Shown here: positions 3,353 through 7,510 of the stretch, in pieces
Position numbering within the stretch: position 1 is the first letter of the stretch
Layout of the letters: every line of letters starts with the position of its first letter
Source of the DNA: Candidatus Cryptobacteroides faecavium
GTDB taxonomy: Bacteria > Bacteroidota > Bacteroidia > Bacteroidales > UBA932
Direction of reading: 5' to 3'
Assembly (NCBI GenBank): GCA_017694995.1
Contig: JADIMB010000001.1
Span: 1 to 64,000, forward strand
Length of the DNA stretch: 64,000 nt
Made by a program: the position numbers and the translations under genes
Notes under the pieces: model-generated
Told to the model about the DNA's origin: nothing
The model's database searches: none
Seen by the model: only the letters and a program-made list of their open reading frames with translations

Positions 3353-4054
3353 ATGCAGGGAAAAATCAATCTTATCGGACATCTCAATGACGGGATGCTG
3401 GAGGCAGGGTGCGATGAGGCAGGACGCGGACCACTGGCCGGACCGGTGTTCGCCGCGGCTGTCATATTGCCGGAAGGATTTTCGCATCCTCTGCTGAACG
3501 ATTCGAAGAAAATGACAGAGAAGGCACGGGAGATACTGCGTCCGGTGATAGAGAGGGAGGCTGTGGCATACGCCGTAGAGTCTGTAAGCGCCCGGGAAAT
3601 AGACACTGTAAATATACTCAACGCATCAATAGCCGGAATGTGGAGGGCTGTCATGAGACTGGCCGTCAAGCCTGAGTTCCTGCTGGTGGACGGAAACAGG
3701 TTCTGGCCTTACACGAGAATAAGCGGGATGGAGGAAGGCATGAGCACTGGCTCACCGGCTGGGGAAGGGCCGTGGGCAGACCGGAATATTGTCCTGGAAT
3801 ACAGCAGGATACCATATCAGTGCATAGTAAAAGGCGACGGGAAGTATGCCTCTATTGCGGCAGCGTCAGTCCTTGCCAAGACATACAGGGACGAATACAT
3901 GAGAAATCTGGCTGTGGAATATCCGCAGTACGGATGGGAGAGGAACATGGGCTATCCCACCAGGGAGCACATAGAAGCCATCCGGGAATACGGTTTCACC
4001 CCGCACCACAGGATGAGTTTCCATGTGAAGGAGCTCGAGCCGTCGCTTTTCTGA
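3353..4054 (+). CDS. rnhB: Ribonuclease HII
   Basis: CDEAGRGPLAGPVFAAAVILP and VKGDGKYASIAAASVLAKTYRDEYM motifs. Confidence 0.95.
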   Translation: MQGKINLIGHLNDGMLEAGCDEAGRGPLAGPVFAAAVILPEGFSHPLLNDSKKMTEKAREILRPVIEREAVAYAVESVSAREIDTVNILNASIAGMWRAVMRLAVKPEFLLVDGNRFWPYTRISGMEEGMSTGSPAGEGPWADRNIVLEYSRIPYQCIVKGDGKYASIAAASVLAKTYRDEYMRNLAVEYPQYGWERNMGYPTREHIEAIREYGFTPHHRMSFHVKELEPSLF

Positions 4055-4178: not shown

Positions 4179-4925
4179 ATGAAGAACGCCGTTATCTATA
4201 CCTGCATAACCGGAGATTATGACTGTCTGATGGAGCCGGGTGCTGCAGATCCTGATTTCGACTATATCTGTTTTGTGGAAAAGGGCAAGAAGACCGCCGG
4301 AAGGTCCGGAATATGGGAAATCAGAGAGACGGACTTCAGCCTGGACGACAAGACAGTCCTGTCCAGGTACCCCAAGATCAACCCGCACATCCTGCTGCCC
4401 GAATATGAGTACAGCGTCTGGATAGATGGCAATATAGTCATAAGTGACATGTATTTCTATGATATAGTCCGCCAGAAAATACGCAGCGGGGTGCTTTACT
4501 CCGGCATGAAACACTGGGCGAGGGACTGCGCATACGATGAAGTGGCCAAATGCATCGATGCAAGGGTGGATTCCCGCATCAGGCTTATCAAGGCTCTTGC
4601 CTTCCTGAAGAAGAACCATTTTCCAAAGCATTACGGGATGTACGAGAACAATGTCATATTCAGACGTCACAATGCTCCGGAAATCATGGAATTCGACACG
4701 TTGTGGTGGCAGATGTTTACAGATTACACCCACCGGGACCAGATTCTCCACCCTTACTGCATGATGAAGTGCGGAATAGATTTCGATTTCCTGCTTCCTC
4801 CGCCTTACTGCGCCAGGAACCACTGGTCGCTCAAGTACACGGACCATGTTGCCGACAGGAAATTGTACTGGCACAGGAACATATTCAACAAGACGGCCAA
4901 TTTCTTCATCAAGCTGTTCATATGA
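4179..4925 (+). CDS. DUF616/TOD1-like glycosyltransferase-related protein
   Basis: YTCITGDYDCL...FVEKG...PKINPHILLPEYEYSVWIDGNI; DxD-like region. Confidence 0.6.
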   Translation: MKNAVIYTCITGDYDCLMEPGAADPDFDYICFVEKGKKTAGRSGIWEIRETDFSLDDKTVLSRYPKINPHILLPEYEYSVWIDGNIVISDMYFYDIVRQKIRSGVLYSGMKHWARDCAYDEVAKCIDARVDSRIRLIKALAFLKKNHFPKHYGMYENNVIFRRHNAPEIMEFDTLWWQMFTDYTHRDQILHPYCMMKCGIDFDFLLPPPYCARNHWSLKYTDHVADRKLYWHRNIFNKTANFFIKLFI

Positions 4926-4932
4926 TAATTCC

Positions 4933-5297
4933 GGCAATCGCAAACAAGTTTGCATTGCTCTGGGGCTTCTGCGATATTTGGCCTGGCGGCCATTTATACG
5001 GCTGCGCCTCGGCAATTGCAAACAAGTTTGCATTGCTCTGGGGCTTCTGCGATATTTGGCCTGGCGGCCATTTATACGGTTCACGCCTCGGCAATTGCAA
5101 ACAAGTTTGCATTGCTCTCGGCTTCTGCGATATTTGGCCTGGCGGCCATTTATACGGTTCACGCCTCGGCAATCGCAAACAAGTTTGCATTGCTCTCGGG
5201 CTTCTGCGATATTTGGCCTGGCGGCCATTTATACGGTTCACGCCTCGGCAATCGCAAACAAGTTTGCATTGCTCTCGGCTTCTGCGTATATTTGCGT
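4933..5297. repeat. Tandem array: four full 78/79-bp units plus a fifth partial unit
   Basis: Unit starts (ggcaat[c/t]gcaaac) at 4933, 5011, 5090, 5168, 5247; near-identical units, no spacers. Confidence 0.95.
5263..5294 (+). promoter_or_regulatory. Bacteroidetes sigma-ABfr-type promoter in the last repeat copy
   Basis: TTTG (5263-5266) N20 TATATTTG (5287-5294), 47 bp upstream of ATG 5342. Confidence 0.7.
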
Positions 5298-5341: not shown

Positions 5342-7510
5342 ATGAAAAAATTCCTTTGCGCAATCGCGGCCCTGTCGCTTTTCTCAACGGGAGGGCTGAA
5401 AGCAGATGAAGGCATGTGGATGCTGCCTCTTCTGGAGAAAATGAACATCAAGGTGATGCAGCAGGAAGGCTGCAGGCTGACCGCAGAGCAGATCTACAGC
5501 ATAAACCACTCCTCTCTCAAAGACGCCATCGTGCAGTTCGGGGGAGGATGCACCGGGGAGATAATCTCCGACAAGGGCCTCCTGGTGACCAACCACCACT
5601 GCGGATACGCCAGCATCCAGCAGCTCAGCTCTGTGGAGCATGACTACCTGACAGACGGCTACTGGGCGATGAACAGCTCGGAAGAGCTCCCTTGCCAGGG
5701 CCTTTCCGTGACTTTCCTTGAAAGCATGACAGATGTGACATCAATAATGGAAAAGACAGAAAAAGCAGCCCGCAAACAGTACAGGGACAGCCTGGATGCC
5801 GAAGGGCTGGTGGCCAAGGCTCTCGCGGCCAAGGAAGACGAGCTCAGGAAAGCGGCTGAAGGGGACAACCCGCACTGCAGGGTAGTGTTCGAGTCCTTCT
5901 ACAACAGGAATGTCCGCTACATGATCGTCTACAAGACTTTCCGCGACATCCGTTTCGTGGGCGCGCCGCCTTCCTCCATCGGGAAGTTCGGGGCTGACAC
6001 CGACAACTGGATGTGGCCCCGCCACACCGGGGACTTCTCCATGTTCCGCGTCTATGCCGACAAGGACAACAACCCGGCAGAATACTCGGCGGACAATGTC
6101 CCGTACACTCCAAAGCAGCACCTCGCCATCTCCCTCAAAGGCGTGCAGGAAGGAGACTACACCATGATCATGGGTTACCCGGGAAGGACCAACCGCTTCT
6201 TCACATCCCCTGAACTGAAAAGCCTCCTGGCAAAGCAGGACATATCCATCTCCGCCCGCACTATCCGCCAGGACATAATGATGGAGGACATGCTCGCCGA
6301 CCCGAAGGTGAAGATACAGTACGCAAGCAAATATGCAGGCTCTTCCAACGGCTGGAAGAAATGGATAGGAATGAAGCAGGCGTTCGCCAAACTTGATGTC
6401 ATCGGACGCGCAGAGCAGGAGGAGGCCGGATTCACCGCCTGGGTAGACCAGAACAGGAAACGCCAGGAGAAATACGGTTCTGCTCTCGAGACCATACGGA
6501 AAGGCGTGGAGGCCGGAGCGGCCGCGAACAAGGTATACACGACCACATTGGAGTCCGTCTTCAGGATCGAGCTCTCCACAATGGCCACCATGTTCAACAA
6601 CGCCGTCAAGACATCCCTCCGCGCATCAGGGTCAACAGATACACTTGCGGCATTCCAGGACGCGCTGGCAATGATGCCTGCCCTCTACAAGGACTATTCG
6701 GAAAGCCTGGACAGGAAAGAAGCCAAGGCGATGCTGGAATACTACAGGGACAATGTGGACACCACATATTACCTTAAAGGCATATCCCCTGACTTCGGGA
6801 CAATGGACATAAGCTCGTACGTGGACTCCCTTTTCTCCCGCAGCATATTCACCTCAGAGGAGAAACTGGCCGGGGCGCTGGAGAGCATGAAGCCTTCAGA
6901 AGTGCTGGAAGACCCTGCCATAAGCCTTGCGAAATCATACTCCACGGTAATCACCGGTGTACTGCCGGAAATATCGTACAGCGACTCCCTGCTTGCCGCA
7001 GGACGCAAGGCATACACGGCCGGGCTTCTGGAATGGAAGAAGGGCGAGCCGTCATATCCTGACGCCAACTTCACCATGAGGCTGACCTACGGCCACGTGA
7101 AGGGATACTCCCCTAAGGACGCTGTAATCTACAAATATTACACTACCCTGGACGGTGTGATGGAGAAGGAAGACCCTGACAACTGGGAGTTCGTAGTGCC
7201 TGCAAAACTCAAGGGGCTGTGGGAAGCCGGGGACTTCGGCCAGTATGCCATGGCTGACGGCAAAATGCCGGTAGCGTTCCTCTCCAACAACGACATCACC
7301 GGAGGAAACTCCGGAAGCCCGGTCCTGAACGCCGACGGACAGCTCATAGGACTTGCCTTCGACGGCAACTGGGAGTCAATGAGCAGCGACATCATGTTCG
7401 AGCCGGACCTCCAGCGGTGCATCAACGTGGACATCCGCTATGTGCTCTTCATTGTCGACAAGTTCGGAGGAGCCGGCTACCTGCTTGATGAAATGACTAT
7501 AGTTAAATAA
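5342..7510 (+). CDS. S46 family dipeptidyl-peptidase (DPP7/DPP11-like)
   Basis: DEGMWMLPLLEKMN; GGCTGEIISDKGLLVTNHHCGY; DITGGNSGSPVLNADG. Confidence 0.93.
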   Translation: MKKFLCAIAALSLFSTGGLKADEGMWMLPLLEKMNIKVMQQEGCRLTAEQIYSINHSSLKDAIVQFGGGCTGEIISDKGLLVTNHHCGYASIQQLSSVEHDYLTDGYWAMNSSEELPCQGLSVTFLESMTDVTSIMEKTEKAARKQYRDSLDAEGLVAKALAAKEDELRKAAEGDNPHCRVVFESFYNRNVRYMIVYKTFRDIRFVGAPPSSIGKFGADTDNWMWPRHTGDFSMFRVYADKDNNPAEYSADNVPYTPKQHLAISLKGVQEGDYTMIMGYPGRTNRFFTSPELKSLLAKQDISISARTIRQDIMMEDMLADPKVKIQYASKYAGSSNGWKKWIGMKQAFAKLDVIGRAEQEEAGFTAWVDQNRKRQEKYGSALETIRKGVEAGAAANKVYTTTLESVFRIELSTMATMFNNAVKTSLRASGSTDTLAAFQDALAMMPALYKDYSESLDRKEAKAMLEYYRDNVDTTYYLKGISPDFGTMDISSYVDSLFSRSIFTSEEKLAGALESMKPSEVLEDPAISLAKSYSTVITGVLPEISYSDSLLAAGRKAYTAGLLEWKKGEPSYPDANFTMRLTYGHVKGYSPKDAVIYKYYTTLDGVMEKEDPDNWEFVVPAKLKGLWEAGDFGQYAMADGKMPVAFLSNNDITGGNSGSPVLNADGQLIGLAFDGNWESMSSDIMFEPDLQRCINVDIRYVLFIVDKFGGAGYLLDEMTIVK

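Follow-up and report, generated by a model that had tools for sequence, protein, structure and literature searches.

In most cases the reuse of a sequence is the sole ground for inferring a mobile promoter, and REP elements depend on RAYT transposases. REPs carry a GTAG or CGTC tag (PMC3733652, PMC8049555). BrickBuilt, a MITE-like repeat of Porphyromonas gingivalis, has been shown to have promoter activity in E. coli, and its authors propose that it is a putative mobile promoter (PMC4596501). The -7 consensus of Bacteroides is TANNTTTGY (PMC12632263; PMC8748976). The invertible promoters of Bacteroidales flip in place between inverted repeats beside an invertase gene (PMC8748976).

The window is a stretch of 64,000 nucleotides of the gut bacterium Candidatus Cryptobacteroides faecavium, in which a five-unit tandem array precedes the gene of an S46 peptidase. 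Judged from its sequence, the array is probably one occupied site of a non-autonomous, mobile, hairpin-bearing promoter element of ~70-80 bp that enters -7 boxes and then tandemises.

Array upstream of the S46 peptidase gene

TRF finds a tandem repeat at positions 4932-5294 of the window, with a period of 78, 4.6 copies and 96% matches. The units (4933-5294) all lie on the forward strand, and are built from two hairpins termed H1 and H2. Starting at the 5′ end, unit 1 (78 bp, 4933-5010) contains H1 at 4934-4958 with a TTTG at 4949-4952, followed by a defective -7 box GATATTTG at 4973-4980 and by H2 at 4973-4999. Unit 2 (79 bp, 5011-5089) has H1 at 5012-5036, the same defective box at 5051-5058 and H2 at 5051-5077. 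These elements are located at 5091-5115, 5129-5136 and 5129-5155 in unit 3 (78 bp, 5090-5167), and at 5169-5193, 5208-5215 and 5208-5234 in unit 4 (79 bp, 5168-5246). The array terminates with unit 5, a half unit of 48 bp (5247-5294) comprising H1 (5248-5272) with the -33 TTTG at 5263-5266, a 20-bp spacer and the -7 box TATATTTG at 5287-5294. The next base is C, and this box fits TANNTTTGY; the perfect TATATTTG is found in unit 5 only.

H1 reads GCAAT(C/T)GCAAAC-AA-GTTTGCATTGC in each of the five units, and the TTTG is spaced from the box by 20, 20, 19, 20 and 20 bp in units 1-5. The preliminary description of this locus had placed the five unit starts at these positions and had noted the H1 dyad with its TTTG and a spacing of 19-20 bp in every unit, and both observations are confirmed by TRF and by the unit coordinates. 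It had also assigned the hairpin TGGCC-tggc-GGCCA to the units generally; its GGCC-tggc-GGCC core is present in units 1-4 and absent from unit 5, where the half unit is followed by the leader of the gene. The 21-base end of the repeat is unique within the window and was found 0 times in 100 shuffles, and TTTG-N20-TATATTTG at 5263-5294 is one of five matches in the window, where 1.1 are expected.

The next ORF after the array is the S46 peptidase gene (5342-7510, forward strand; Pfam PF10459, E 4.7e-231). Upstream lies a gene for a TOD1/MUCI70 glycosyltransferase-like protein (4179-4925, forward strand), whose stop codon is 7 nt before the array. As the array begins inside a unit at this distance from the stop codon, its original left edge is lost; no native left -7 box is visible at the S46 site. 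The TOD1/MUCI70-like gene sits between an RNase HII-like gene (identified by eye) and the S46 gene, and a similar gene precedes S46 in genomes G091 and G069, and not in G045 and G084. Several reading frames are open across the array. A reading as protein repeats was set aside; the repeats directly precede gene starts in many genomes.

Structure of the unit

The unit comprises the short hairpin H2 and the longer hairpin H1, the latter lying between near-constant flanks ATACTGTTGCGCCTCGG...CTCTCGGCTTCTGCG. H1 is usually 24-25 or 33 nt in length, and its stem often has an unpaired base or a mismatch. There are 170 distinct H1 sequences in 285 units, and the two arms change together between copies. 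Folded with their own arms the H1 sequences have a mean of -7.2 kcal/mol, compared with -4.4 kcal/mol when arms are swapped, the own arms being the better in 88% of the 170. H2 is located between units, and here too the changes in the stem match each other (GCC-tgac-GGC, ACTTCGT, GCTTCGC). As single-stranded DNA the whole unit folds with H2 and H1 enclosed by an outer ATAC/GTAT stem (z -2.65). This outer ATAC..GTAT stem is imperfect, and inspection by eye revealed no IS-like terminal repeats. Versions of H1 of 60-130 nt with an extra hairpin exist. H1 enlarged by a second hairpin of ~110 nt occurs in more than one species (L015 ~620-770, L022 ~2650-2800 and L094 ~3709-3862, the last on the minus strand).

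The covariation of the H1 stem argues for recognition of the fold, as single-stranded DNA or RNA, rather than for a sequence-specific operator. A conserved operator sequence of the kind expected for a transcription-factor regulon was not found in H1, where the arms vary and covary. This weakens the earlier proposal that the upstream copies act as decoy operator sites.

Dispersal and placement before genes

The DNA of the array has 23 matches in the 2.33-Mb draft genome, on many contigs. A genome-wide search for the unit, as had been proposed, was run with the 21-base end CTCGGCTTCTGCGTATATTTG; allowing up to 3 mismatches it finds 24 ends, and the reversed-pattern control 0. The units are nearly always directly upstream of a gene, each time a different one. 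The downstream genes encode, for example, a cupin, an OPT transporter, NAD synthase (nadE), flavodiiron-type and FKBP proteins, a C1 peptidase, LpxK, RsfS, UvrD, a family 2 glycosyltransferase, adenylosuccinate lyase (purB), a KsgA-type methylase and a release factor (prfB). Near-identical promoter-like sequence thus lies upstream of unrelated genes in one genome.

Six genomes of the same genus contain 128 arrays of 1 to 7 units each, with a constant orientation towards the gene. An ORF starts within 200 nt downstream in 114 of the 119 arrays with enough flank, at a median of 28 nt. In a strict test of placement, limited to ORFs of 150 codons or more lying no further than 60 nt from the array, there is such an ORF on the 3′ side in 80/117 and on the 5′ side in 24/105. 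The downstream genes form 93 clusters, of which 16 are common to several species, so that vertical inheritance or recurrent insertion accounts for some of the pattern; rsfS, for example, carries the repeat in four of the six genomes.

The preliminary description had contrasted a promoter array with a generic dispersed repeat. The repeat is indeed dispersed, but almost every copy occupies the position of a promoter and points in the sense direction of its gene. Local amplification of the S46 gene's own promoter does not fit the 24 ends dispersed in this genome, nor the plain promoter found before most of the related S46 orthologues. The earlier observation was right, and its reading too local.

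Two further repeats were observed. A second dispersed hairpin repeat, CCCCTATTAGGGGGATCTCGCTCCCTCCGGTCGCGGTCCCTTCGGGAC, adjoins several of the promoter-repeat arrays in related genomes (L293 ~1210-1280, L296 ~1400-1476 and L281, also L077, L149, L172 and L071). Other species of the genus have a diverged sister version of the repeat, GCCTCGG..stem..CTCGGCTTATTCG (L037, L039, L040, L056, L057, L058 and L029), in which the NN positions of the terminal boxes are variable (TATCTTTG, TACATTTG), as expected of native -7 boxes.

Terminal and internal -7 boxes

Terminal boxes fit TANNTTTGY in 17/22 cases in this genome and in 171/206 over all sets, while internal boxes do so in 0/14 and 43/194 respectively. 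Loci picked by the exact TATATTTG pattern are biased for this comparison; the strongest contrast is that of this genome's own set, which was gathered by DNA similarity. That only the gene-proximal unit is intact, noted at first for this array, is therefore a rule that extends across the family. The further view of each unit as promoter-like, and of the array as a tandem amplification, is likewise supported by the sequences. Internal boxes in this genome are defective (GATATTTGG), and unit 5 is predicted to be the only one that fires on the S46 gene, which would thus be driven by the terminal promoter of the array. Decoy promoters, the other role suggested for the upstream copies, are unlikely in this genome. 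Indirect support for a transcription start at the repeat comes from the -7 consensus together with a candidate TPP riboswitch directly downstream of another copy in this genome (L018 3499-3604, minus strand; 50.3 bits, E 6.7e-9, slightly under the Rfam gathering score).

Occupied and empty sites

Orthologous genes with and without the repeat were compared between draft genomes. The clearest pair is that of a family 2 glycosyltransferase gene, occupied at L383 (G091) and empty at L381 (G045), where both flanks can be aligned, on the upstream side up to 17 nt before the ATAC motif. The empty site reads ...ttttaagccacttttttc-TATCTTTG-gagg...ATG, with a single native TATCTTTG, and the occupied site reads ...ttttcagccgtttttgcg-TATATTTG-[H2-H1-ggcttctgcg]-TATATTTG-gcctg...ATG. 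The three bases preceding the left box of L383 are GCG, which is the element's own end, so that this box could belong to a decayed unit. A second pair, L132 and L144, is partial; its upstream flank can be aligned over part of its length, a single TATATTTG is present at the empty site, and when occupied there is a box on both sides. Taken as a candidate target-site duplication, the -7 box flanks the element in both pairs, that on the left of L383 being ambiguous.

In two other pairs only the 3′ junction is readable. The gene of a metallo-beta-lactamase-fold protein (99% identical between the two genomes) reads gcgTATATTTGcaggcgtacgatacaaccattATG at L023 in this genome and acgTATATTTGcagacgtacgaaacaaccattATG at L349 in G091, with the junction exactly at the native box. 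In L016 and L390 GTATATTTGcaRgtcaattt comes next in both, again placing the junction at the native box. The 3′ end of the element therefore falls at the native box in 4/4 pairs, and the two pairs with a traceable 5′ side have a box at either end of the element, both junctions being resolved in few occupied/empty pairs. Of 137 first units whose left half is readable, 53 have sequence foreign to the element ahead of the box that precedes H2; the remainder are truncated or unclear.

The S46 site itself is variable. The sister species G091, with an S46 protein 87% identical, has two units with another H1, compared with five here. A plain promoter occupies the site in G045, G084, G069, G154 and G066, as in most of the related orthologues, and its TAtnTTTG-like box is about as far from the start codon as here.

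Distribution across genomes

Within the genus, 20 of 151 sampled genomes match a degenerate pattern of the repeat, some of which look like chance, for example the single matches in G003 and G007. The copy-rich genomes of the genus are those with the S46 closest to that of this genome. The repeat was found in 35 of 250 genomes of the family, in 5 of its 26 genera, and is copy-rich where present. Carriers may be isolated among empty congeners, as for 3/30 in genus g209 and 1/2 in g214. No repeat was detected in 387 sampled genomes of the order outside the family, so the element is confined to one family of the Bacteroidales. The named carriers (Cryptobacteroides, Merdivivens, Coprenecus, Egerieousia, Onthomorpha and Muribaculum sp. 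An289) fall in different families of the NCBI taxonomy, and together probably correspond to the one GTDB family of the 250-genome survey. This patchy, copy-rich presence suggests gain by transfer; clade-wise loss is also possible. The exact 21-mer has no match in viral contigs, nor has the terminal part of the array in the plasmid and phage records searched.

Discussion

The proposed mobile promoter element is made up of H2, an H1 whose stem varies freely, and a constant end CTCGGCTTCTGCG lying directly against a -7 box. Mobility would be the cause of its dispersal. Insertion with duplication of the box would be the primary event, in which the -7 box of a native promoter receives the element, by entry or by copying, and a box is left on both sides. 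The right arm of H1 usually brings a TTTG or TTG motif as -33 region, which would make the 3′ copy of the box an active promoter for the downstream gene. Tandem growth might then follow, either through further insertions into that box or through unequal crossing-over. The terminal box would take over transcription, and the internal boxes would decay or become inactive. The form recognised is presumably the single-strand hairpin. No autonomous partner or mobilising enzyme was found. An autonomous longer copy, with the two halves far apart, was considered and rejected; the long spacings look like chance matches to the left motif, and the search revealed in its place a family carrying an inserted hairpin of ~110 nt.

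Several other explanations share parts of this evidence. The repeat might be an ancestral promoter module of the lineage, with H1 as the site of a dimeric regulator, inherited vertically as a regulon and duplicated locally in tandem. The constant position relative to genes is consistent with this, as are genes such as rsfS that carry the repeat in several species and the restriction of genus carriers to species with the S46 closest to this one. We nevertheless consider such a regulon unlikely, since the covarying arms of H1 lack the sequence conservation of an operator, the species have mostly different downstream genes, there are isolated carriers in otherwise empty genera, and orthologues have plain promoters at the same place. 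It is quite unlikely that the array is an expression-tuning minisatellite, as the preliminary description had proposed, its length selected to act on the S46 gene as a decoy or rheostat. The number of units at this site differs between sister species and arrays vary in length, as this would predict, but the internal boxes here all fail the -7 consensus and the same arrays precede unrelated housekeeping genes.

The covarying stems could instead reflect a functional RNA, with H1 and H2 acting within a leader transcribed from a native or upstream promoter, in processing, stability or attenuation. Many single units have a left -7 box ahead of them, from which they would be transcribed. Yet transcripts from the terminal box would begin after the hairpins, the length and sequence of H1 vary freely, a search of Rfam over the array gave nothing credible and no Rfam family fits, and this role is very unlikely. 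Movement as a REP-type element by a Y1 (RAYT) transposase is disfavoured as highly improbable. The many short intergenic palindromes, with frequent mismatch or bulge in the stem, resemble REPs, but there is no match to PF01797 at E ≤ 0.001 in the carriers G057, G066, G068 and G091, nor in G129, G142, G125, G154 (99% complete), G610 (99%) and G551, while many non-carriers do have Y1 proteins. A Y1/RAYT transposase was therefore rejected as the mobiliser; its presence is uncorrelated with carriage, and it is absent from many copy-rich carriers that are 90-99% complete.

More tentatively, the mobile promoter element may represent a class that targets the promoter itself, a hairpin of 70-80 bp moved by an enzyme acting on the folded single strand, with insertion specific to the -7 box, duplication of the box, take-over of housekeeping genes and repeated insertion giving rise to tandem arrays. 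The anatomy of the family can be defined, its junction lies at the -7 box, and sister species provide empty sites; the family also grows in tandem and is spread patchily over five genera. If the mobile reading is true, it would provide a tractable case of housekeeping promoters (purB, prfB and uvrD) swapped by a selfish or domesticated element, and the occupied and empty orthologues would be a ready-made set of natural experiments.

Comparison with known systems

A repeat of comparable kind in Cryptobacteroides was not found in the literature searched, and BrickBuilt alone emerged as a close case from the search for mobile promoters. Both are Bacteroidales repeats with ~20 intergenic copies per genome, and both have tandem repeats, those internal to BrickBuilt expanding and shrinking (PMC4596501). 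BrickBuilt differs in its IS5-like terminal inverted repeats, its 23-bp repeat core and its bidirectional promoters, which are located 49-591 nt from genes (PMC4596501). In the present family it is the whole unit that is repeated, in one orientation and with its 3′ end at the -7 box itself, and terminal repeats like those of an IS were not seen by eye. Putative mobile promoters (cited in PMC4596501) are likewise near-identical promoter sequences before unrelated genes of one genome. They are defined by reuse of sequence, to which this family adds a fixed hairpin anatomy, tandem arrays and the -7-box junction.

REP and REPIN elements are also short intergenic palindromes in many copies (PMC3733652, PMC8049555), whereas many copy-rich carriers of this repeat are without a RAYT-type enzyme. 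The invertible promoters of Bacteroidales have in common with it the TTTG / TANNTTTGY consensus and the movement of promoters (PMC8748976), but the orientation of this repeat is constant, which sets it apart from a promoter that inverts, and no neighbouring invertase was noted. The kinds that come nearest to the repeat are MITE-like mobile promoters such as BrickBuilt, and it is not counted among the REPs or the invertible promoters.
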